Below, piece by piece: positions 1 to 63,061 of a DNA stretch of 64,000 nucleotides (position 1 is the first letter of the stretch; each line of letters starts with the position of its first letter). The translations under genes were made by a program, and so were the position numbers. The notes under the pieces were generated by a model. The model saw nothing but the letters and a program-made list of their open reading frames with translations, did not search any database and was not told the origin of the DNA. Source of the DNA: Aurantimonas endophytica (GTDB lineage: Bacteria; Pseudomonadota; Alphaproteobacteria; Rhizobiales; Rhizobiaceae); assembly GCF_014196845.1 (NCBI RefSeq), contig NZ_JACIEM010000004.1, forward strand, positions 310,001-374,000. The letters run 5' to 3'.

Positions 1-2
1 CC

Positions 3-638
3 GCCCGCGCCGCCGATACGAGCCTCGACCACGACAACCCGCTGGAGGAACTCTTCGAGGACCAGATCCGCGCCGCCGACCTGATCGTCCTCAACAAGGC
101 CGATCTCGTCGACGCCGAAACGCTGGAGCGGGTCCGCGCCGAAATCGCTGGGCAAGCCGCTGCCGGCGTCAAGATCGTCAGCGCCGAAGCCGGCAGCCTG
201 CCGGCCGACGTGCTGCTCGGCATCGCCGCCGGCACCGAGGATCTGATCGCCGGCCGCAAGTCGCATCACGAGATCGAGCACGAGGCGGACGGCGCCGAGC
301 ATGACCACGACGAGTTCGAGAGCTTCGTCGTCGACGCCGGCAGCGTCGCCGACCCAAAGGCCTTCGCGGACGGGCTCGCCGGCCTGATCGCCGCGCACGA
401 CATATTGCGCGTCAAGGGTTTCGCCGAGGTGCCGGGCAAGGCCATGCGCCTCGTCGTCCAGGCCGTCGGCCAGCGGATCGAGACCTATTTCGACCGGCCA
501 TGGAAGTTCGGCGAGACCCGCGCCACGCGCCTCGTCGTCATCGGCCTGCATGACGGGCTGGACGCGGCGACCTGCGCCACGATCACCGCGGCGATCCGCG
601 GCCTGACCGACGACGCGGCGCGGGACGCCGCCGAGTAG
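3..638 (+). CDS. cobW: CobW, GTP-dependent metal chaperone of cobalamin synthesis (5' end outside window)
   Basis: The reading frame is open from the first bases, so the N-terminal half with the Walker A motif lies upstream. What is visible starts near the end of the G3E GTPase domain: the guanine-recognition motif NKADLVD is seen at about bases 93-113, followed by a CobW C-terminal domain. A His/Asp/Glu-rich stretch (HHEIEHEADGAEHDHDEF) at about bases 264-317 is typical of COG0523 metallochaperones and fits cobalt handling. The stop codon TAG overlaps the ribosome-binding site of cobN, so the two are translationally linked. CobW is taken to supply cobalt to the CobNST chelatase. The COG0523 family also has zinc chaperones, but the cobN neighbour makes CobW the best call. 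Confidence 0.93.
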   Translation, partial: ARAADTSLDHDNPLEELFEDQIRAADLIVLNKADLVDAETLERVRAEIAGQAAAGVKIVSAEAGSLPADVLLGIAAGTEDLIAGRKSHHEIEHEADGAEHDHDEFESFVVDAGSVADPKAFADGLAGLIAAHDILRVKGFAEVPGKAMRLVVQAVGQRIETYFDRPWKFGETRATRLVVIGLHDGLDAATCATITAAIRGLTDDAARDAAE

Positions 639-647
639 GAGCAGCTT

Positions 648-3600
648 TTGCATCTTCTCCTCGCCCAGCAGGGCACGATCGACGACGGCGGCGAGGCCAT
701 CGATCTCGGCCAGTCGCCGGCGGACATCGTCGTCCTGTCGGCGGCCGACACCGAGATCGCCGGCCTCGCCTTCGCCGCAAGGCGCCTCGGCGCGGCGGCA
801 CCGTCGCTGCGCCTCGCCAATCTCCTGCGGCTGAAGCACCCGATGTCGGTCGACGTCTATGTCGAGCGCACGCTCCGCCACGCCAAGCTGGTGGTCGTGC
901 GCCTGCTCGGCGGCGCCGCCTACTGGCCCTACGGCCTCGACGCGCTGCTCGCCAACGCGCAAGCCTCGGGCGGCCAGCTCGTCGTGCTGCCCGGCGACGA
1001 CAAGCCCGATCCGGGCCTCGACCGCTATTCGACTGTGTCGCCCGAAATCCGCGACCGGCTCTGGGCCTATCTGGTCGAAGGCGGCGCCGCCAACGCCGAC
1101 AATTTCCTCCTGTCGCTGCGCTGGCTGCTGGACGGCGGCGACGCGCCGGCCGAAGCGCAGCCGCTGCTAAAGGCGGGCGTGCTGGAACTGGGGGGCGCTT
1201 CCGGCGTCGGCGATTGGCCGATCTCCCCCCTTGTGGGGGAGGTGTCCGGCAGGACAGAGGGGGGCAGGTCGCCCGCCGACCTCAGTTCAACGAAGGAAGT
1301 GATCGAGCGCACCGAGGGTGACACGCCAGCCAAACCGGCCAGCGAAGCCCACCCCCCTCTGCCTGCCGGCTTTGGGGACGAGCCACGCGTCTCGTCCCGT
1401 CCTGCGGACCCCGCCACAAGGGGGGAGATCGAAGGTGGCGAGGGCAGCGGGCTTGCCTCGACCGCCGAGCCTGAAGTCGAAGACGCCGAGGCCAGCGATG
1501 AGCCGATCTCCCCCCTTGTGGGGGAGATGTCCGGCAGGACAGAGGGGGGTACGCCTCCCGCCAGCCTACATCCGTCCGAGCAAGCGCTCGAAAGCGCCGG
1601 CTCTGGCAACCTGACCGCCCCAACCAAAGTGGCATCCGAAGCCCACCCCCCTCTGCCTGCCGGCATCTCCCCCACAAGGGGGGAGATCAATGGTGGCCCA
1701 GGCGGCGCGCTTGCCTCAACTGCCGAGCTTGAAGTCGAAGTCGCGGAGGCCAGCGACAAGCTGATCTCCCCCCTTGTGGGGGAGATGTCCGGCAGGACAG
1801 AGGGGGGTGAGTCCCCCAAAACCGCAGATAAACCCGAAAAACCCCTCGCCGCCATCGTCTGCTACCGGGCGCTGGCGCAGAGCGGGCAGACGGAGCCGGT
1901 GGAAGCGCTGGCGCGGGCGCTGGCGGAGCGCGGGCTGGGCGTGCTGCCGGTGTTCATCTCCAGCCTCAAGGACCCGGTTTCCGTCGAGACGGTGCGGGCG
2001 CTGTTCGCAAGACGCGCGCCGTCCGTCGTGATCAACCTCACCGGCTTTGCGGTCTCCTCGCCGGGCGGCGAGCGGGTGCCGACGGTGCTGGAGGAACAGG
2101 GCGCGGTGGTGCTGCAGGCGGTGCTCGCCAGCGGGGCGCGCGAGACCTGGGCTGCCTCGCCGCAGGGCCTGTCGGCGCGGGACCTCGCGATGAACGTCGC
2201 GCTCCCCGAAGTCGACGGCAGGGTGCTGAGCCGCGCCATCGCCTTCAAGTCGGCCGGCGACTGGGACGCCCTGACCGAGACCGACATCGTCGCCCACCGC
2301 GCGCTGCCGGACCGGGTTGCCTTCGTCGCCGAACTCGCTGCGCGCTGGGCAAGGCTTAGGGCCAAAACGCCGGCCGAGCGCCGCGTCGCGATCCTTCTTG
2401 CCAACTACCCCAACCGCGACGGACGGCTCGGCAACGGCGTCGGGCTGGATACGCCCGCCGGCATGATCGAGGTGCTGCGGGCCATGGCGGACGCCGGCTA
2501 CGCCGTCGCCGGCATCCCCGCGAACGGCGACGCGCTGATCGATCATCTGATGGCCGGCCCGACCAATGCCGGCACCGCGGCGCGGACGATCCGCGAGACC
2601 ATGTCGCTGGGTGCCTATCGCCTGTTCTTCGCTACGCTGCCGCAAGCCCTGCAGGACGCCGCAACGGCGCGCTGGGGCGATCCCGCCGACGATCCCTTCG
2701 TGGTCGAACGTCCCGAGGGCGCGGCCTTCGCGCTGCCGCTGGCGCGCTTCGGCGAGACGCTCGTCGGCATACAGCCGGCGCGCGGCTACAATATCGACCC
2801 GAAGGAGACCTACCACTCGCCCGACCTCGTGCCGCCGCATAATTATCTCGCCCTCTACGCCTTCCTGCGGACCGAATACGGCGCCGACGCCATCGTCCAC
2901 ATGGGCAAGCACGGCAACCTCGAATGGCTTCCCGGCAAGGCGCTGGCGCTGTCGGCCGAATGCTGGCCGGAGGCGGTGCTGGGCCCGCTGCCGCATCTCT
3001 ACCCGTTCATCGTCAACGATCCGGGCGAGGGGACGCAGGCCAAGCGCCGGGCCGCCGCGGTGATCATCGACCATCTGACGCCGCCGCTGACCCGTGCCGA
3101 AAGCTACGGCCCGCTGAAGGATCTCGAAGCCCTCGTCGACGAATATTACCAGGCCGCCGGCAGCGACCCGCGCCGCCTCGAACTCCTCAAGGGCCGCATC
3201 CTCGACCTCGTCCGGGACATCGGCCTCGACCACGACGCCGGCATCGGGATCGACGACGGCGCGGCCGCGGCGCTGGCCAAGCTCGACGCCTATCTCTGCG
3301 ACCTCAAGGAAATGCAGATCCGCGACGGGCTGCACGTCTTCGGCCTGGCGCCCGAGGGGCGGCTGCTGACCGACCTCGTCGTGGCGCTGGCCCGGCTGCC
3401 GCGGGGCATCGCGGCGGCGGATGCCTCGTTGCATCGCGCGTTGGCGGCGGATGTGTTGTCTCGTGCGACGTCAGAGCGCGGTGGTGCGCCTTACCCCCCT
3501 CTGCCTGCCGGCATCTCCCCCACAAGGGGGGAGATCGATGATGCTACCGACAGCAGCCTTGCTGTCTCGGCCGAGCAGATCGAAAGAGCCGAGGCCAGCG

Positions 3601-5516
3601 ACAAGCCGATCTCCCCCCTTGTGGGGGAGATGTCCGGCAGGACAGAGGGGGGTACGCGGCCCGCCACCCTCAGCCGATCCGAGGAACCCTCTAAAAGCGC
3701 GGCTCATGAACTGGCCACCCCGGCCGAGCAGGTCCCCGAAGCCCACCCCCCTCTGCCTACCGGCATCTCCCCCACAAGGGGGGAGATCGAAGCGAGCACC
3801 GGTGGCACGTCTGCCTTATCCGCCGAGCAGAAGAACGAAAGCGGCAAGCCTGGCGATTATCTGATCTCCCCCCTTGTGGGGGAGATGTCCGGCAGGACAG
3901 AGGGGGGTACGCCTCCCGCCAACCTCAGCCGGACCGAGCAACCGACCGGCAGGACAGAGGGGGGTACGCCACCCGCCGCACCCGCGAGCCCGAACACCCC
4001 CTTCGACCCGCTCGACTGCGACATGGCCGCCCCATGGGCCGGTCCGCGCCCACATCTCCTGCAATCCCTCTCCCCCGACCCATGGCGCACCAACGGCGAC
4101 ACGGTCGAGCGCCTCGAACTGCTGGCCGCAAGCCTCGTCGCCGGCGAAACCACACCCGACCCGGCCTGGACCGCCACCACCGCCGTCCTCGCCGAGATCG
4201 ACGCGCGCCTCCGCCCCGCCGTCACCAGCTCCGGCCCCGCCGAGATCGCCGGGCTGCTCGCGGGCCTTGCCGGTCGCTTCGTCGCGCCCGGGCCCTCCGG
4301 CGCGCCGACGCGGGGGCGGCCGGACGTGCTGCCGACGGGGCGCAACTTCTACTCTGTCGATACGCGCGCCGTGCCGACCGAGGCCGCGTGGGATCTCGGC
4401 CGGCGCTCGGCGGAGCTGCTGGTGACGCGGCACCTGCAGGACAATGGCGACTGGCCGGGTTCGATCGGCATCACCGCCTGGGGAACGTCCAACATGCGCA
4501 CCGGGGGTGACGACATCGCCCAGGCCTTCGCGCTGATCGGCGCGAGGCCGGTCTGGGACCGCGCATCGCGGCGGGTCACCGGCTACGAGATCATCACGCT
4601 GGCCGAACTCGGCCGGCCGCGCGTCGACGTCACGCTGCGCATCTCCGGCTTCTTCCGGGATGCCTTCCCCGACCAGATCGCGCTGTTCGACCGCGCGGCG
4701 CGGGCGGTCGGCGCGCTCGACGAGCCGGCCGAGGAAAATCCCGTCGCCGCCCGCATGGCGGAAGAGCGCGCGGCGCTGGTCGCCTCGGGCGTTCCGGAGG
4801 CGGAGGCCGCGCGGCGCGCCGGGTTTCGGGTCTTCGGCTCGATGCCCGGCGCCTACGGGGCCGGACTGCAGGCGCTGATCGACGAGAAGGGCTGGACCGA
4901 CAAAGCAGATCTTGCCGAGAGCTATCTCGTCTGGGGCTCTTACGCCTACGGCGCCGGCACGGAGGGCGAGGCGGACCGGCAGGGCTTCGAGGCGCGGCTT
5001 TCGACCGTCGAGGCGGTGGTGCAGAACCAGGACAACCGCGAGCACGACCTCCTCGATTCCGACGACTACTACCAGTTCGAGGGCGGCATGACGGCGGCGG
5101 TGGAGCATGTCTCCGGCCGGCGGCCGGTCGTCTACCACAACGACCATTCGCGGCCCGAGCGGCCAGTGGTGCGCACGCTGGAGGAGGAGATCGGCCGCGT
5201 CGTCAGGGCGCGGGTGGTCAATCCGAAATGGATTGCCGGCGTCATGCGCCACGGCTACAAGGGGGCCTTCGAGATCGCCGCCACCGTCGACTACATGTTC
5301 GCCTTCGCCGCCACCACCGGCGCCGTCCGCGACCATCATTTCGAGGCGGCCTATCGCGCCTTCGTCATCGACGAACGGGTGCGGGCATTCCTGATGGACC
5401 ATAATCCGCATGCCTTCCGCGACCTGTGCGACAGGTTGGCGGAAGCCATCGACCGAGGTCTGTGGAAACCGCGCTCGAACTCGGTGGCGGCGACGCTCCA
5501 GAGCGCTCCTTCGTGA
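648..5516 (+). CDS. cobN: Cobaltochelatase large subunit CobN with two in-frame palindromic-repeat insertions
   Basis: CobN is the ATP-dependent subunit that inserts cobalt into hydrogenobyrinic acid a,c-diamide with CobS and CobT. The start is TTG with AGGAG six bases upstream; no ATG is available. The product is 1622 residues, against about 1250-1290 for ordinary CobN. The excess sits in two blocks, at about residues 191-387 and 950-1106. Each is built of short elements read as ISPLVGEMSGRTEGG in one orientation and PPLPAGISPTRGEI in the other, separated by Ala/Glu- or Ser/Pro-rich spacers. Conserved CobN sequence resumes cleanly after each block (AAIVCYRAL after block 1, FDPLDC after block 2), and no frame is broken. 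The insertions fall in linkers, so the enzyme may stay functional; that is inference. Confidence 0.95.
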   Translation: MHLLLAQQGTIDDGGEAIDLGQSPADIVVLSAADTEIAGLAFAARRLGAAAPSLRLANLLRLKHPMSVDVYVERTLRHAKLVVVRLLGGAAYWPYGLDALLANAQASGGQLVVLPGDDKPDPGLDRYSTVSPEIRDRLWAYLVEGGAANADNFLLSLRWLLDGGDAPAEAQPLLKAGVLELGGASGVGDWPISPLVGEVSGRTEGGRSPADLSSTKEVIERTEGDTPAKPASEAHPPLPAGFGDEPRVSSRPADPATRGEIEGGEGSGLASTAEPEVEDAEASDEPISPLVGEMSGRTEGGTPPASLHPSEQALESAGSGNLTAPTKVASEAHPPLPAGISPTRGEINGGPGGALASTAELEVEVAEASDKLISPLVGEMSGRTEGGESPKTADKPEKPLAAIVCYRALAQSGQTEPVEALARALAERGLGVLPVFISSLKDPVSVETVRALFARRAPSVVINLTGFAVSSPGGERVPTVLEEQGAVVLQAVLASGARETWAASPQGLSARDLAMNVALPEVDGRVLSRAIAFKSAGDWDALTETDIVAHRALPDRVAFVAELAARWARLRAKTPAERRVAILLANYPNRDGRLGNGVGLDTPAGMIEVLRAMADAGYAVAGIPANGDALIDHLMAGPTNAGTAARTIRETMSLGAYRLFFATLPQALQDAATARWGDPADDPFVVERPEGAAFALPLARFGETLVGIQPARGYNIDPKETYHSPDLVPPHNYLALYAFLRTEYGADAIVHMGKHGNLEWLPGKALALSAECWPEAVLGPLPHLYPFIVNDPGEGTQAKRRAAAVIIDHLTPPLTRAESYGPLKDLEALVDEYYQAAGSDPRRLELLKGRILDLVRDIGLDHDAGIGIDDGAAAALAKLDAYLCDLKEMQIRDGLHVFGLAPEGRLLTDLVVALARLPRGIAAADASLHRALAADVLSRATSERGGAPYPPLPAGISPTRGEIDDATDSSLAVSAEQIERAEASDKPISPLVGEMSGRTEGGTRPATLSRSEEPSKSAAHELATPAEQVPEAHPPLPTGISPTRGEIEASTGGTSALSAEQKNESGKPGDYLISPLVGEMSGRTEGGTPPANLSRTEQPTGRTEGGTPPAAPASPNTPFDPLDCDMAAPWAGPRPHLLQSLSPDPWRTNGDTVERLELLAASLVAGETTPDPAWTATTAVLAEIDARLRPAVTSSGPAEIAGLLAGLAGRFVAPGPSGAPTRGRPDVLPTGRNFYSVDTRAVPTEAAWDLGRRSAELLVTRHLQDNGDWPGSIGITAWGTSNMRTGGDDIAQAFALIGARPVWDRASRRVTGYEIITLAELGRPRVDVTLRISGFFRDAFPDQIALFDRAARAVGALDEPAEENPVAARMAEERAALVASGVPEAEAARRAGFRVFGSMPGAYGAGLQALIDEKGWTDKADLAESYLVWGSYAYGAGTEGEADRQGFEARLSTVEAVVQNQDNREHDLLDSDDYYQFEGGMTAAVEHVSGRRPVVYHNDHSRPERPVVRTLEEEIGRVVRARVVNPKWIAGVMRHGYKGAFEIAATVDYMFAFAATTGAVRDHHFEAAYRAFVIDERVRAFLMDHNPHAFRDLCDRLAEAIDRGLWKPRSNSVAATLQSAPS
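1220..1807 (+). repeat. Array 1 of palindromic elements (family 1) inside cobN
   Basis: Three forward elements (1220-1264, 1505-1549, 1763-1807) alternate with two reverse elements (1352-1430, 1646-1688). The forward element is 45 bp: a hairpin with arms ATCTCCCCC and GGGGGAGAT, then TCCGGCAGGAC and a run of G. The first reverse element carries 36 extra bases. Forward elements are spaced 285 and 258 bp, multiples of three. The two 74-bp reverse-to-forward spacers resemble each other, both containing CTTGCCTC, GCCGAG and GAGGCCAGCGA, so whole composite units have been duplicated. All five copies are translated as part of CobN. Confidence 0.95.
3494..3964 (+). repeat. Array 2 of palindromic elements (family 1) inside cobN
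   Basis: Reverse elements lie at 3494-3536 and 3746-3788, forward elements at 3608-3652 and 3863-3907, and a truncated forward tail (CCGGCAGGAC onward) at 3946-3964. The forward-to-forward distance is 255 bp and reverse-to-reverse 252 bp, both multiples of three. Spacers between reverse and forward copies match those of array 1 (GCCGAGCAG, GAGGCCAGCGACAAG), so the two arrays share a composite unit of about 255 bp. The array splits CobN between its ASLHRALAADV segment and FDPLDC. Confidence 0.94.
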
Positions 5517-5534: not shown

Positions 5535-5963
5535 GTGACCGTACGCATCGAGCGGATCGAGGGGCTGGACGGCGACCGCCGCGCCGCGATCACCGCCCCC
5601 TTCGCGGAGGCCGCGACCGTCAAGCGCTTCGCCTTCTCGCCCCACCATTTGACGCTGGCCCTGACCGACGAGCATGGCATCGACGGCGGGCTGATCGCCC
5701 AGCTCTACTGGGACTGGATGCATGTCGAGATCCTCGCCGTGCCGGAGCGCTATCGCGGAAAGGGCCTCGGCCGGGCGCTGCTCGAACAGGCCGAATCCGT
5801 CGCGGCGGCGTCTGGCTGCACCGGCGCCTGGGTCGACACCTATTCCTTCCAGTCGCCGGGTTTTTACGAAAAGATGGGCTACAGCGTCTTCGGCCGCCTG
5901 CCGAACTATCCGAAGGGCGAAGAGCGGATCTTCTTCGCCAAGCAGCTCAAGGCTGCCGACTGA
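5535..5963 (+). CDS. GNAT family N-acetyltransferase
   Basis: This 142-residue protein has the GNAT fold signature. The acetyl-CoA-binding motif A is the stretch VEILAVPERYRGKGLGRALL (about residues 64-83), and the C-terminal FYEKMGYSVFGRLPNYPKG matches the usual end of the domain. It begins 18 bases after the cobN stop and ends 16 bases before cobO, so it is embedded in the cobalamin operon. The acceptor substrate is unknown and nothing in the sequence links it to corrinoid chemistry. It may simply be co-transcribed. Start ATG is not certain, since the frame is open slightly upstream, but length is normal for the family. Confidence 0.85.
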   Translation: MTVRIERIEGLDGDRRAAITAPFAEAATVKRFAFSPHHLTLALTDEHGIDGGLIAQLYWDWMHVEILAVPERYRGKGLGRALLEQAESVAAASGCTGAWVDTYSFQSPGFYEKMGYSVFGRLPNYPKGEERIFFAKQLKAAD

Positions 5964-5979: not shown

Positions 5980-6624
5980 ATGAGCGAGAGCGAACGCACC
6001 CGCATCACCGACGGCATGAGCGAGGCCGAGCTCGACGCACGCCACGCCGAGAAGATGAAGAAGAAGAAGGCGGCGCGCGACAAGATCCTCGCCACCAAGA
6101 CGGTCGAGAAGGGCCTGCTGATCGTCCACACCGGCAAGGGCAAGGGCAAGTCCACCGCCGCCTTCGGCCTGGTCTTCCGGGCGCTCGGCAACGGCATGAA
6201 GGTCGCCATCGTGCAGTTCGTGAAGGGCAAGTGGGAGACCGGCGAGCGCAAGGTGCTGGAGAAGTTTCCCGGCGAGGTGACGATGACCGCGATGGGCGAC
6301 GGCTTCACCTGGGAGACCCAGGACCGCCAGCGCGACATCGCCGCCGCCCGTGCCGCCTGGGACCGCGCCAAGGCGCTGATCATGGACGACGAGCACGACC
6401 TGGTGCTGCTCGACGAGCTCAACATCGTCCTGCGCTACGACTATCTCGCCGTCGCCGAGGTCGTCGAGTTCCTCAAGGCCAAGCCGGCGATGAAGCACGT
6501 CGTCGTCACCGGCCGCAACGCCAAGGACGAGCTGATCGAGATCGCCGACCTCGTCACCGAGATGGAAATGATCAAGCACCCGTTCCGGTCGGGCGTGAAG
6601 GCGCAGCGGGGGATCGAGTTTTAG
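5980..6624 (+). CDS. cobO: Cob(I)yrinic acid a,c-diamide adenosyltransferase
   Basis: The enzyme transfers the 5'-deoxyadenosyl group of ATP to reduced corrinoid, making the adenosylated cobalamin precursor. The protein has 214 residues, normal for CobO/BtuR. The P-loop HTGKGKGKST lies at about residues 50-59 after a basic N-terminal helix (EKMKKKKAARDK), and VLLDELNIVLRYDY carries the acidic Walker B-like residues. The C-terminus ends in the familiar KHPFRSGVKAQRGIEF. The start at 5980 was chosen over an in-frame upstream ATG because GGGAGG precedes it and the upstream sequence overlaps the GNAT gene. It is the last recognisable gene of the cobalamin operon here. Confidence 0.96.
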   Translation: MSESERTRITDGMSEAELDARHAEKMKKKKAARDKILATKTVEKGLLIVHTGKGKGKSTAAFGLVFRALGNGMKVAIVQFVKGKWETGERKVLEKFPGEVTMTAMGDGFTWETQDRQRDIAAARAAWDRAKALIMDDEHDLVLLDELNIVLRYDYLAVAEVVEFLKAKPAMKHVVVTGRNAKDELIEIADLVTEMEMIKHPFRSGVKAQRGIEF

Positions 6625-7848: not shown

Positions 7849-8276
7849 CGTTGTCCGCTATCCCTTGGATGTAATTTTCATTCAAAAGACGCCGACCCTC
7901 CCGTTATTAGGCGGCTTCGCGGCTCCCCTCCACTGCAATGGGACGGCGCCGCGCCCTGCGTCGATGGCGACGGGCCGATCTCCCCCCTTGTGGGGGAGAT
8001 GCCTGGCAAGGCAGAGGGGGGTATTCCCGGCACCGACCCATCGGATGGTGCCGCAAAGCCACCCCCCTCTGGGCTGCCGCCCATCTCCCCCACAAGGGGG
8101 GAGATCGAAGCGCCACTGGCGTGCCGGTAGCTCGCCCGCCGCTGAGGCTTGGCCGCGACCATACGCGCCGCCCCCTCCCGCAGGAGCCCTCCTTCCGTAG
8201 CTGCCTCCAAGAATAACGCGCGCATTTCGGCAAGACGCGGTAGAAGCGATCCATTCCCCCTAAGAGCGATGCCGAC
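7849..8276. other. Intergenic region holding a family 1 repeat pair
   Basis: This 428-base stretch between the nuclease-like gene and the HWE kinase has no convincing gene. Its main content is an inverted pair of the same palindromic element found inside cobN. The rest shows no terminator, tRNA or promoter that I can support. Confidence 0.7.
7977..8106. repeat. Intergenic inverted pair of family 1 palindromic elements
   Basis: A forward copy (7977-8021) and a reverse copy (8062-8106), each 45 bp, are separated by 40 bases. Both keep the CTCCCCC...GGGGGAG hairpin and the CAGAGGGGGG tail but differ in the middle (GCCTGGCAAGG and GGGCGGCAGCC), so they belong to variants distinct from the cobN copies. 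Nothing translates through them, showing that the family is not confined to coding sequence. Confidence 0.92.
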
Positions 8277-9278
8277 ATGCCCTTCAGCGATCCGAACCAT
8301 CCGCTGTCCAAGCCCGAGAATCTGCGCCGCGCCATTCATGCGGCGGGGGTGGCGCTGTGGTCGTGGACGGTGGCCAGCGATCATTTCGCCATGGACAAGC
8401 GGGCCTTCGAACTGTGGGGGCTGGAGCCGAGCGGGGAGGTCAGCTTCGAGGATCTGTCGGCGCATATCCATCCGGCCGACCGCGACCGGGTGCGCGCCGC
8501 CTTCACCGCGACGCGCGGCATCGTCGGTCCCTACGAGATCGACTTCCGCATCATGGTCGGCGAGGAGATTCGCTGGATCTCGGCGCGCGGCCTCGGCGAC
8601 GACGAGGCGCTGCACAACGGCCAGATGTTCGGCATCTTCCTCGACGTCACCGGCCGCAAGCAGGCCGAGGAGGGCCATGAGCTGCTCGCCGGCGAGATGA
8701 GCCACCGGGTCAAGAACCTGCTCGCCATCGCCTCCGGCCTCACCACCATCACCTCGCGCTCGACGACCACGGCCGAGGAGATGGCGAAGGAACTGACCGG
8801 GCGGCTGGCGGCGCTCGGCCGCGCCCACGATCTGGTGCGCCCGCTGGCGAGCGGCCAGGGCACGGCGGCGCTGCTGGGCGACCTCTTGACGGTGCTGCTC
8901 GCCCCTTACGAGGATCTCGGCGCCTTCAGCGGCCGCATCCGTGTCGCGGTGCCGCGCATGGGCGTCGGCGAGAAGGCCGCGACGACGCTGTCGCTGATCA
9001 TCCACGAACTCGCCACCAACTCGCTGAAATACGGCGCGCTGTCGACCGATACCGGCATTCTCGACCTGTCGGGCTCCACCGACGAGGACGCGGTCACGCT
9101 GGTCTGGACCGAGCGCGGCGGCCCGTCGGTCGAGGCGCCGGAGAGCGCCGAGGGCTACGGCTCGAAGCTGGTGCGCCGCAGCGTCGCCGGCCAGCTCGGC
9201 GGCACGATCGACTACGACTGGTCCGACGAGGGCGTGGTCGTCAAGCTGGCGTTGAACGGCGACCGCTTGGCCATCTAG
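8277..9278 (+). CDS. PAS domain HWE-family sensor histidine kinase (copy 1)
   Basis: The 333-residue cytoplasmic kinase has a PAS domain at about residues 15-128 and an HWE kinase core. The phospho-acceptor is His143 in GEMSHRVKNLLAI. The N-box is HELATNSLKYGALS, and VWTERGG supplies the W-x-E signature that names the family. GYGSKLVRRSV is the G-box. No transmembrane segment is present. HWE kinases commonly act in light, general-stress or two-component signalling in alphaproteobacteria. No response regulator is adjacent, so its partner is unknown. It is closely similar along its whole length to the kinase at 19.7-20.7 kb. Confidence 0.92.
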   Translation: MPFSDPNHPLSKPENLRRAIHAAGVALWSWTVASDHFAMDKRAFELWGLEPSGEVSFEDLSAHIHPADRDRVRAAFTATRGIVGPYEIDFRIMVGEEIRWISARGLGDDEALHNGQMFGIFLDVTGRKQAEEGHELLAGEMSHRVKNLLAIASGLTTITSRSTTTAEEMAKELTGRLAALGRAHDLVRPLASGQGTAALLGDLLTVLLAPYEDLGAFSGRIRVAVPRMGVGEKAATTLSLIIHELATNSLKYGALSTDTGILDLSGSTDEDAVTLVWTERGGPSVEAPESAEGYGSKLVRRSVAGQLGGTIDYDWSDEGVVVKLALNGDRLAI

Positions 9279-15454: not shown

Positions 15455-15979
15455 TGGATGTCCAAGCTAGGAGAGGGTGCTGCCGAGGCGAATAGCATCG
15501 CCTGCGCGGTGTCGATAGTCACAGTTTGGTAGGGAGCACCCTGAGCGTTGGCGCCTGACCGACGCTCGCCGTGCAGTAAGATAACCGCAGACGCAGCGCT
15601 ATGTTCCCGCAATTTATGCACTATCGACATGGCGCTTCCGTGAACGGGAACGGAAAGGCGCGAGCGGGCCCGCCGGCAGGGGATCGCTGCCGGCTCGCCT
15701 GGGATGATCGGGGAGCACTGCGGCCGCATGCCGCAGCGCCTTGGCCGTCGTTAACGCTCCCGCACCCCTCTCTTGCCATTTCTGCGACTTGGCCCTCGGC
15801 AAGCCTCGGGACCAAGACCGCGAAAAGGCTTTCTCTCCCTCAAGGGGAGAGAGGGTGCTTCCCCTCGGACGCCGCGCCCCTCTCCCCCCCTGAGGGGGAG
15901 AAAGCGATTTCATCGGATTAGTGCCGAAGGCGCTAAACGATAGAAATCGCAAGAGAGGGGGCCGCAACGCTCCTTCGGC
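15455..15979. other. Gene-free intergenic region with family 2 repeats
   Basis: The 525 bases between the desaturase and the PRISE-like reductase hold no supported gene. The right half has one full reverse family 2 palindromic element and, at 15770-15853, a related but divergent copy with CTCTCTTGCC and the hairpin CTCCCTCAAGGGGAG. The left half shows nothing recognisable. Confidence 0.7.
15877..15960 (-). repeat. Family 2 palindromic element, copy a
   Basis: An 84-bp element in reverse orientation. Its core is a long imperfect palindrome with outer arms GCGATTTC and GAAATCGC, an inner TTTAGCGCC/GGC.CTAA pair, and an adjacent CTCCCCC/GGGGGAG hairpin. Four further copies lie at 59.0-63.1 kb. 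Confidence 0.9.
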
Positions 15980-19676: not shown

Positions 19677-20687
19677 ATGACCACCACCGCCGAGAGCCTG
19701 AAGCCGCTTCTGTGGGAACCCAAGAACCTGGTGCGCGCCGTGCAGGCGGCCGGGGTGACGCTCTGGTCCTGGAACGTCGATACCGACGCGCTGGCGATGG
19801 ACGACCATGCCTACGATCTGTGGGGCATCCCGCAGGGCAAGGACGTCAAGTTCGAGGATCTGTCGGCGCATATCCACCCGGCTGACCGGGACCGGGTGCG
19901 GGCCGCCTTTAACGCCACGCGGGCGATCGTCGGGGCCTACGAGATCGACTTCCGCATCATGATCGGCGACGAGCTGAAATGGATCTCGGCGCGCGGGCAG
20001 GGCGACGATACCGGCATGGTCAGCCGGATCATGTTCGGCATCTTCATCGACGTGACCGGCCGCAAGCAGGCCGAGGAGGGGCGCGAGCTCCTCGCCGGCG
20101 AGATGAGCCACCGGGTCAAGAACCTGCTGGCCATCGCCTCCGGCCTCACCGCCATCACTTCGCGCTCGACCGAGACCACCGAGGACATGGCCCGCGAGCT
20201 GACGCAGCGGCTGACGGCGCTCGGCCGGGCCCACGATCTCGTCCGGCCGATCGCCGGGCAGACCGAGGCCGCCTCGGCACTGCTCGGCGACCTGCTCACC
20301 GTGCTGCTCGCGCCCTACGACGATCTCGGCGCCTTCAGCGGGCGGATCCGGGTCTCCGTGCCGCGGATGAGCGTCGGCGACTCGGCGACGACCATCCTCG
20401 CACTGATCGTCCATGAACTCGCCACCAACTCGTTGAAATACGGCGCGCTCTCCGTCGACACGGGCACGCTCGACGTCTCCTGCTCGGCGCATGACGAAGC
20501 CATCACGCTTGTCTGGACCGAGAGCGGCGGGCCGCCGGTCTCGCCGCGGACAGGCGTCGGCGGCTATGGCAGCAAGCTCATCGAGCGCAGCGTCATCGGC
20601 CATCTGCGCGGCAAGATCGACTATAACTGGGCGAACAGCGGCCTCGTGGTGACGCTCAAGGTCGACCCCGCCCGCCTCGCGGAGTAG
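19677..20687 (+). CDS. PAS domain HWE-family sensor histidine kinase (copy 2)
   Basis: The 336-residue kinase closely matches the one at 8.3-9.3 kb across PAS and kinase domains, with identical stretches such as EDLSAHIHPADRDRVRAAF and GEMSHRVKNLLAIASGL. The phospho-acceptor is His145. The N-box HELATNSLKYGALS and VWTESGGPP are present. The start at 19677 was chosen because GGAGA precedes it and the upstream extension is not shared with copy 1. No transmembrane region and no neighbouring response regulator. The two look like a within-genome duplication, diverged mostly at the ends. Confidence 0.92.
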   Translation: MTTTAESLKPLLWEPKNLVRAVQAAGVTLWSWNVDTDALAMDDHAYDLWGIPQGKDVKFEDLSAHIHPADRDRVRAAFNATRAIVGAYEIDFRIMIGDELKWISARGQGDDTGMVSRIMFGIFIDVTGRKQAEEGRELLAGEMSHRVKNLLAIASGLTAITSRSTETTEDMARELTQRLTALGRAHDLVRPIAGQTEAASALLGDLLTVLLAPYDDLGAFSGRIRVSVPRMSVGDSATTILALIVHELATNSLKYGALSVDTGTLDVSCSAHDEAITLVWTESGGPPVSPRTGVGGYGSKLIERSVIGHLRGKIDYNWANSGLVVTLKVDPARLAE

Positions 20688-58905: not shown

Positions 58906-59032
58906 GGGGGTTGCGGTAAGGCGCCCTCTCAAATTGAGGGAGAGAGGCTTTGCCGAGGACCCAAGTCGCAGAAAAGGCAGGAGAGGGGTGCGGGAGCATC
59001 GATGGCGGGCGGGGGGCGTCGCGGCGAAGATA

Positions 59033-59115
59033 CCCCTCTCTTGCGATTTCTATCGTTTAGCGCCTTCGGCACTAAGCCGATGAAATCGCTTTCTCCCCCT
59101 CAAGGGGGGAGAGGG
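59033..59115 (+). repeat. Family 2 palindromic element, copy b
   Basis: Full copy in forward orientation: CCCCTCTCTTGCGATTTC start, GAAATCGC inner arm and the final CTCCCCC/GGGGGAG hairpin. Located between the YcgN-like and FkbM-like genes. Confidence 0.92.
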
Positions 59116-59916: not shown

Positions 59917-60016
59917 GAGGCCATCTCGTAGCGGGGATCGAGGGTCGAGGGGGGACCTTAGCGTTTTCCGGGGTGGCGAACACGCTGGTTTCCGGCGAGG
60001 TCTGCGCGGGAGAATA

Positions 60017-60097
60017 CCCCTCTCTTGCGATTTCTATCGTATAGCTCCTTCGGCGCTAAGCCGATGAAATCGTTTTCTCCCACTCAAGGGGAGAGAG
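60017..60097 (+). repeat. Family 2 palindromic element, copy c
   Basis: Forward copy with small changes (ATAGCTCC and TTTTCTCC). It ends about 40 bases before the promoter of the packaging cluster. Confidence 0.9.
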
Positions 60098-60137
60098 TAG
60101 GGCAATGTTCATCTGTTCAGTCATAGGAAAATATCCC

Positions 60138-62724: not shown

Positions 62725-62801
62725 CGGCTGGGATCCGGGAGGAGTGACGAGCCGCTAACGGCGCGGCCGGCGGGTCGTTCCGTCGGGCGGCGGCGATCGT
62801 A

Positions 62802-62883
62802 CCCCTCTCTTGCGATTTCTATCGTTTAGCACCTGCGGCGCTAAGCCGATGAAATCGCTTTCTCTCCCTCAAGGGGAGAGAGG
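62802..62883 (+). repeat. Family 2 palindromic element, copy d
   Basis: Forward copy, followed at about 62925-62938 by the CAAGAGAGGGGTG end of a divergent reverse copy. Lies between large terminase and portal. Confidence 0.9.
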
Positions 62884-62978
62884 GAGCAAATCCGGGAAGC
62901 GAAGCAGAGGCGTCGGCGGCAGGCAAGAGAGGGGTGTGAGCGCTGCTGTCGGGCGCTGAGCTGCGCGGAAGCCGGGTA

Positions 62979-63061
62979 CCCCTCTCTTGCGATTTCTATC
63001 GTTTAGCGCCTGCGGCGCCAAGCCGATGAAATCGCTTTCTCCCCCTCAAGGGGGGAGAGGG
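62979..63061 (+). repeat. Family 2 palindromic element, copy e
   Basis: Forward copy, almost identical in its core to copies b and d. It ends about 90 bases before the intrinsic terminator. Confidence 0.92.

Follow-up and report, generated by a model that had tools for sequence, protein, structure and literature searches.

In-frame palindromic elements recur in two linkers of the cobaltochelatase subunit CobN across the Rhizobiaceae

Introduction

Rhizobium intergenic mosaic elements (RIME) are alphaproteobacterial repeats described as intergenic. E. litoralis and S. alaskensis are alphaproteobacteria as well. Intragenic REPs occur in several species, including in tRNA synthetase genes of these two; the stretches they encode are 43–82 aa, the units often lie close together in opposite orientation, and an intragenic REP site is shared in recB of two Xanthomonas species (PMC3733652). 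According to PMC2229807, Rickettsia palindromic elements (RPE) are dispersed, both between genes and in frame in conserved genes, and one element-bearing protein is reported to be translated and active. The same source presents Correia/NEMIS and ERIC as MITE-type repeats, some of them fused in frame to ORFs, and the Caulobacter/Brucella CIR as intergenic alphaproteobacterial repeats of ~110 bp with two hairpin arms; for Wolbachia, in-frame palindromes are indicated by the title of a reference.

The window analysed here is a stretch of 64,000 nucleotides from Aurantimonas endophytica, in which cobN, encoding a cobaltochelatase subunit, carries a palindromic element in two linkers. This is a protein-coding palindromic element that is RPE-like in its behaviour, as a first-pass annotation of the window had proposed: it is a dispersed palindrome found both between genes and in frame in conserved genes, and CobN orthologues without the insert exist whose cores still align. 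The host family differs from that of the RPE, and the likeness is one of behaviour. Unlike the RPE, the unit is a two-hairpin element of 44–48 bp, often an inverted dimer; the inserts reach ~200 residues, and the element recurs at two fixed sites of one enzyme across many genera, where unrelated repeats occur too. With the GTAG/CGTC REPs it shares short palindromes paired in opposite orientation, some in a tRNA synthetase gene, but it has two hairpins per unit and no GTAG/CGTC tag, and no RAYT was found in the A. endophytica genome; moreover, the shared site is in recB of two Xanthomonas species there and in cobN of many genera here. Like MITE-type repeats it is non-autonomous, with an inverted-repeat structure and some ORF fusions, although its dimer spacers are mostly unlike and no transposase or target duplication was identified. 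RIME and CIR are set apart by their description as intergenic. The element is classed with the RPE-like elements because of its behaviour and because the tests for a GTAG/CGTC tag and for RAYT were negative.

To the first-pass annotation, a palindromic element that codes for protein in an alphaproteobacterial chelatase looked new; novelty in kind is not supported, since intragenic REPs have already been reported (PMC3733652). In-frame palindromes as such are known; new here is the family-wide recurrence at identical linkers, unrelated elements included. No paper on palindromes or insertions in cobN was found in the literature searched, whose coverage mostly excludes subscription papers.

The cobN gene and its insertions

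The features of the window are listed in Table 1. The cobN frame contains no stop codon, and its product matches the CobN profile TIGR02257 in three stretches with 1631 bits (cut-off 822), placing it in this family. The solved CobN 9uk9 (1263 aa) aligns with residues 1–182, 396–936 and 1116–1618. Because this alignment leaves the stretches in between uncovered, the excess length is assigned to two linkers between conserved parts, as the first-pass annotation had described; its predicted insertion borders, residues ~190–390 and 950–1110, also match the alignment to relatives, those of the same genus lacking this element there. Open cobN frames of 1286–1297 codons are found in the same-genus genomes G001 and G004–G007, all without the element of the A. 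endophytica genome (G000). Insertions between the conserved anchors are missing from G004, G005 and G007, and the linkers of G001 and G006 hold other inserts (a contig start truncates cobN of G006). A. manganoxydans (L089) belongs to the same genus, and Aurantimonas aggregata KCTC 52919 (L122) has the nearest CobN, with 96% core identity. The genome also encodes a BchH-type magnesium chelatase H subunit (L312, G000:C1 ~1004–1008 kb) without elements, the one CobN paralogue among the matches listed.

Table 1. Coordinates of cobN, its neighbours and the palindromic repeats in the window
Feature	Position	Strand	Evidence or remark
cobW 3' end, gene upstream of cobN, cut at window start	1..639	+	
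cobN, cobaltochelatase subunit, single open frame of 1622 codons	648..5516	+	frame, profile and structure matches
Linker 1 with insertion, PLLKAG... to ...KPLAAIV	1194..1833	+	net ~202 aa more than reference CobN G031
Element copy (ISPLVGEVSGRTEGG)	1219..1266	+	74.8 bits
Interrupted element copy, nested insertion with inverted repeat in hairpin 1	1350..1431	-	26.3 bits
Element copy (ISPLVGEMSGRTEGG)	1504..1551	+	80.3 bits
Element copy (PPLPAGISPTRGEI), shorter hairpin 2	1644..1689	-	66.2 bits
Element copy	1762..1809	+	78.8 bits
Linker 2 with insertion, ...HRALAADV to FDPLDCD	3456..3992	+	net ~173 aa more than reference CobN G031
Element copy	3492..3537	-	67.7 bits
Element copy	3607..3654	+	80.3 bits
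Element copy (PPLPTGISPTRGEI)	3744..3789	-	64 bits
Element copy	3862..3909	+	79.1 bits
Truncated element copy, GRTEGG end	~3946..3966	+	22.4 bits (model match 3935-3966)
GNAT acetyltransferase gene, downstream of cobN	5535..5963	+	
cobO, cob(I)yrinic acid a,c-diamide adenosyltransferase	5980..6624	+	
Intergenic element copy, inverted pair member 1	7976..8023	+	
Intergenic element copy, inverted pair member 2	8060..8107	-	
Second palindromic family copies	15874..15960 (reverse), 59021..59115, 60005..60099, 62790..62884, 62967..63061		

Within cobN, eight copies are intact, one is interrupted and one is truncated. The truncated copy had been recognised by the first-pass annotation, whose nine full copies are here corrected to the eight intact ones and the interrupted one. 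The nested insertion in the latter brings a perfect 8 bp inverted repeat into hairpin 1; a similar interrupted copy is located in linker 2 in G002 / A. aggregata (L054), compared with linker 1 in A. endophytica.

An enzyme gene filled with repeat arrays resembles one in decay, and among 80 named orthologues (the best 80 of at least 585, a set biased to insert carriers) the frame is broken within an insert in two, in linker 1 of L102 and linker 2 of L141, while a third, L151, has a stop in the core; either errors in sequencing or genuine decay may account for these breaks. That the A. endophytica gene is itself decayed to a pseudogene, or wrongly modelled, is nevertheless extremely unlikely, given a core dN/dS of 0.08 and 0.10 against its two nearest relatives, a profile match above the cut-off, the adjoining cobW and cobO, and a paralogue among the matches listed that is an element-free chelatase of the BchH type.

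Structure and genomic distribution of the element

The unit consists of two adjacent hairpins and a G-run, hairpin 1 being ATCTCCCCC...GGGGGAGAT and hairpin 2 enclosing a GGCA loop. In an alignment of 22 copies (14 distinct), pairing holds in 98.4% of the cells. Compensatory changes are seen in hairpin 2, where both sides are altered at three pairs (12 cells versus 3.1 in shuffles). Pairs with both sides changed exceed the shuffles weakly, with 23 of 500 shuffles reaching the observed value, and further pair types show no excess in the 22-copy alignment (375 of 500 reach it). The consensus is free of stops in all six frames.

A covariance model identified at least 41 matches of at least 50 bits in the A. 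endophytica genome; copy numbers from this model are lower bounds, as 150 first-look candidates were scored per genome. With the reversed pattern 0 matches were obtained, compared with 22 for the true pattern. The genome-wide comparison of coding and intergenic copies suggested along with the first-pass annotation gives 8 copies in cobN, 2 in glyS and 28 between genes, in line with its description of one element in both orientations inside and outside cobN. One further, doubtful copy lies near the start of an FG-GAP ORF and may precede the true start, and two (C3:324855 and C6:419319) are unclassified for coding. These coding calls were made with a simple codon-usage script, with Pfam backing for CobN, GlyS and the FG-GAP ORF; at a laxer cut-off, two of the 28 intergenic copies fall inside weak short ORFs. 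Genome G003 has 35 matches of at least 50 bits, namely 4 in cobN, 2 in glyS, 1 in a UvrB frame and 28 intergenic, two of which touch the edge of a predicted gene. Its UvrB-frame copy (L168:1641–1688) sits past the UVR motif. For G009, three of the five genome matches are inside cobN.

Neighbouring copies tend to be inverted. Among 43 such pairs at chosen loci of four genomes, 30 are ordered minus then plus, with spacers of 45–149 bp, 12 plus then minus and one plus-plus, and in occupied CobN linkers the first order is found in 66 of 92 cases and the second in 8. The resulting inverted dimers of ~165 bp have inverted ends of 44–48 bp, terminal inverted repeats being a feature of MITEs. Their spacers, however, are mostly dissimilar to one another: identities are 67–78% among those at C4:256k, C4:257k and G003:12680 and 57–85% among CobN spacers, against a shuffled level of 58%. 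A MITE with a conserved core is rejected, the paired units having mostly unlike spacers and the low-end CobN identities being at the shuffled level.

No constant GTAG or CGTC end was detected in the 22-copy alignment or its flanks. RAYT (PF01797) was not found in G000, G002, G003, G010 or G011, and of 30 genomes 6 have a PF01797 match (5 above the cut-off), as do 5 of 14 controls; a RAYT as mover of the element is rejected, since none was found in the A. endophytica genome. Empty and filled sites, compared by eye only, revealed no target duplication, and a transposase search restricted to PF01797 identified no mobilising enzyme. Element matches of exactly 40 bases are present in ten IMG/VR viral-contig stretches (L302–L311), and similar DNA is present in 181 of 72,556 plasmid records, 73 of them from Rhizobium and 69 from Sinorhizobium. 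Fourteen of the 15 plasmid records listed have no annotated gene under the match, in a gene table that is incomplete, and one is unannotated.

Recurrence across the Rhizobiaceae

In a draw of 141 genomes from the family, CobN was retrieved from 73 at 1e-140, and 71 are full-length (G117 and G125 were left out). Insertion frequencies are taken from this draw because the named set is biased to carriers. At least 25 extra residues are found in linker 1 of 17, linker 2 of 16, either linker of 20 and both linkers of 13 of the 71 proteins, and only one insertion of at least 15 residues, in G099, lies outside the two linkers. In the biased named set, of which 73 of 80 are full-length (L082, L102, L116, L124, L126, L141 and L151 being left out), the corresponding numbers are 43, 49, 54 and 38. 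The element is carried by Rhizobium, Sinorhizobium, Ensifer, Shinella, Ciceribacter, Phyllobacterium and Jiella, among others. Four of the 80 named loci have a contig start at linker 1, as would be expected of repeats; CobN gene models, alignments and assemblies can break there, which should serve as a warning.

After merging identical CobN, 135 frames remained, with 191 element matches: 178 in the linkers, 11 before the conserved start and 2 past the conserved end (L133). A tree was built on the cores without the linkers, in a single run of FastTree in which three long branches were flagged. Insertion in linker 1 (55 of 135) requires 26 state changes on this tree, insertion in linker 2 (59) requires 25 and element presence in the linkers (60) requires 24, compared with means of 42.6, 43.4 and 44.3 for shuffled labels (n=50 each). 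As the changes are many and yet fewer than in the shuffles, a linker insertion is heritable over short spans but often gained or lost, gain and loss being inseparable on the tree. Linker 2 of Shinella-like CobN illustrates this variation, holding the element in L117 and being empty in L154, G105, L131 and L140.

Other repeats use the same sites. Linker 1 of G001 has a clean in-frame insertion of 108 bp with inverted ends, which belongs to a dispersed repeat (10 matches in G001 including itself), and linker 2 of G006 has a clean in-frame insertion of 153 bp that matches 11 places in G006 including itself, most of them partial, at 72–85% identity. Neither is present in the sister genome G004. 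At least three element families use the CobN linkers, and one of the two other than the present element is also found in glyS, matches to the 153 bp insert being located at the glyS coordinates of G006 and G004. Some empty linkers encode a GEGFEPPT-like peptide, for which a tRNA-arm origin was considered and rejected: the DNA word expected of such an origin is missing from these linkers and turned up only in L101 and G072.

The second gene, glyS (L073:2214–4586, G000:C2), is expected to be essential. In A. endophytica its protein contains an in-frame inverted pair of the element between the tRNA_synt_2f and DALR_1 domains. Among 30 genomes inspected, the pair occupies one site in A. endophytica, G002, G003, G027 and G034; different sequences are found there in G004, G006 and G055, and the site is empty in G005 and G007.

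That distant genera share one element family at both sites would also be expected if the segments were an old CobN linker domain, ancestral in the Rhizobiaceae, not mobile and repeatedly lost. We hold this to be very unlikely, because the element is dispersed, with most copies lying between genes in the two genomes classified; its spacers are mostly dissimilar except in orthologous or exchanged units; clean insertions of unrelated repeats at these sites separate sister species; and very frequent, precise in-frame loss would be needed. The first-pass annotation had named the same segments in CobN of distant genera as evidence against insertion. Such segments do exist, but insertion is not refuted by them, because of the at least 24 changes on the tree and the clean insertions between sister species. 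The copies are so similar across genera that no single case can be assigned to repeated gain, to loss after presence in an ancestor, or to conversion.

Of the 71 draw loci, 12 have the element in linker 1, 13 in linker 2 and 5 in the flanks (180 kb), and none has it in the core (252 kb), so that the density of element-bearing loci per kb is ~60 times higher in the linkers than in the flanks. Because the flanks are intergenic only in part, the excess over intergenic DNA is smaller, perhaps several-fold by estimate. The two linkers also gain or lose inserts jointly: over 19 independent pairs, 9.2 differ in the same way, 0.5 in the other way and 9.3 show no difference (median p 0.008, range 0.001–0.109).

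Reading frame, selection and predicted structure

Among the 191 matches in the 135 frames, plus copies are read in the ISPLVGEM frame 96 times and in the two other frames 7 times, and minus copies as PPSVLPDISPTRGEI 64 times, as PPLSCRTSPPQGGRS 21 times and in the third frame 3 times; these counts are inflated by shared descent. The observation that each orientation keeps one frame is correct within the window, but across the 135 frames it is reduced to a strong bias, each of the six frames being seen at least once within a linker. With all six occurring in linkers across genera, the element as a coding module of fixed frame is rejected.

Over 20 chosen species pairs, dN/dS is 0.05–0.19 in the core and 0.31–1.23 in the linkers; the pairs were hand-picked, overlap in species and are based on pairwise alignments of variable linkers. 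From this difference, cobN is under strong selection and the insert sequence under far less. Compared with the mid-core, the inserts are enriched in G, P, S and E and depleted in L, F and Y. The AlphaFold model (residues 1–1150) gives a pLDDT below 50 for residues 184–229 and 231–391 and near 90 for the flanking blocks, so linker 1 is predicted to be disordered. Residues 889–1150 are poor throughout, and the model speaks to linker 1 only, because the modelled fragment ends within the C-terminal part.

The open frames suggest that the palindromes are translated as part of CobN, with candidate peptides such as PISPLVGEMSGR. Inserted peptides or RNA might instead be removed after synthesis, by protein cleavage or RNA excision, and the strong hairpins could serve as processing sites, although nothing direct points to this. 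Segments excised from RNA should gather stops and frameshifts, yet the frames are mostly open: 73 of the 80 named CobN are full-length and four of the seven others are cut by contig ends, an argument that is partly circular because the best open frames had been chosen. Removal is thus scarcely credible.

A role for the inserts deserves somewhat more weight, although it too is unlikely. They could be kept for function, for example if an mRNA hairpin between folding units slowed the ribosome or if the loop tuned subunit contacts. One linker 1 dimer folds as RNA with -130.7 kcal/mol (z -11.2), two Pfam domains (catalytic and anticodon-binding) flank the GlyS pair as the blocks aligned with 9uk9 flank the CobN inserts, and both the density in the linkers and their joint change are in keeping with such a role. 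However, 51 of the 71 full-length draw CobN have no insert of at least 25 residues, the linker sequence is weakly constrained, and either order within a pair is accepted, as are single copies and unrelated families. Moreover, inserts between folding units are equally expected from tolerance alone, and co-occurrence may just reflect element activity or exchange from linker to linker. Equally doubtful is a reading of the CobN and GlyS linkers as preferred or selected landing pads, in which unrelated palindromes are repeatedly recruited because a stable mRNA hairpin, or a disordered loop of some length, between folding units would aid ribosome pausing, folding or subunit assembly. If this were true, selfish palindromes would have been domesticated convergently to serve as linkers in proteins of a whole bacterial family.

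Array growth and proposed origin

Successive plus copies in cobN are spaced 285, 258, 1845 and 255 bp apart. The linker 1 spacer of G003 is 81% identical to the first linker 2 spacer of A. endophytica, versus 65–69% to its linker 1 spacers, and the noncoding locus C4:439434–439855 is 78% identical to an A. endophytica linker 1 spacer (shuffled 58%). This locus holds a disturbed copy, and its spacing of 256 bp breaks the frame. Since these spacer identities show exchange between the linkers and a noncoding locus, we infer that recombination took place between identical repeats.

Taken together, it is likely that stop-free mobile palindromes were tolerated in CobN as disordered loops and multiplied via recombination. 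Non-autonomous palindromic repeats of a Rhizobiaceae-wide family, often as inverted dimers of ~165 bp, would insert at many sites; in the CobN linkers, inserts whose length is divisible by three would be translated as disordered loops, which the enzyme presumably tolerates. Selection on the enzyme core would preserve the open frame, whereas the sequence of the loop would be left to drift. In the Aurantimonas lineage of the window, recombination of near-identical copies may then have multiplied the unit, with a spacing of 252–285 bp, and copied it among the two linkers and a noncoding locus. Tolerance accounts for the survival of inserts in the linkers but not obviously for their high frequency there.

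The Rhizobiaceae are a large family with many cultivable members. The phenomenon is wider than first annotated, extending over many genera and to glyS and involving no fewer than three element families, and the system is a natural laboratory for selfish DNA turning into protein in soil and plant-associated bacteria. One enzyme offers many contrasts of presence and absence, clean insertions between sister species and several unrelated families, with glyS as a second case. It becomes testable in rhizobia whether the inserts are neutral or used, what moves the element and how repeats add disordered segments to proteins.

Further repeats in the window

A second palindromic family of ~85–95 bp in the window has a similar hairpin 1, and most of its copies are weak matches to the element model. 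Two gene-sized stretches, 8304–9156 and 19710–20565, share 77–86% DNA identity and are probably paralogous genes.
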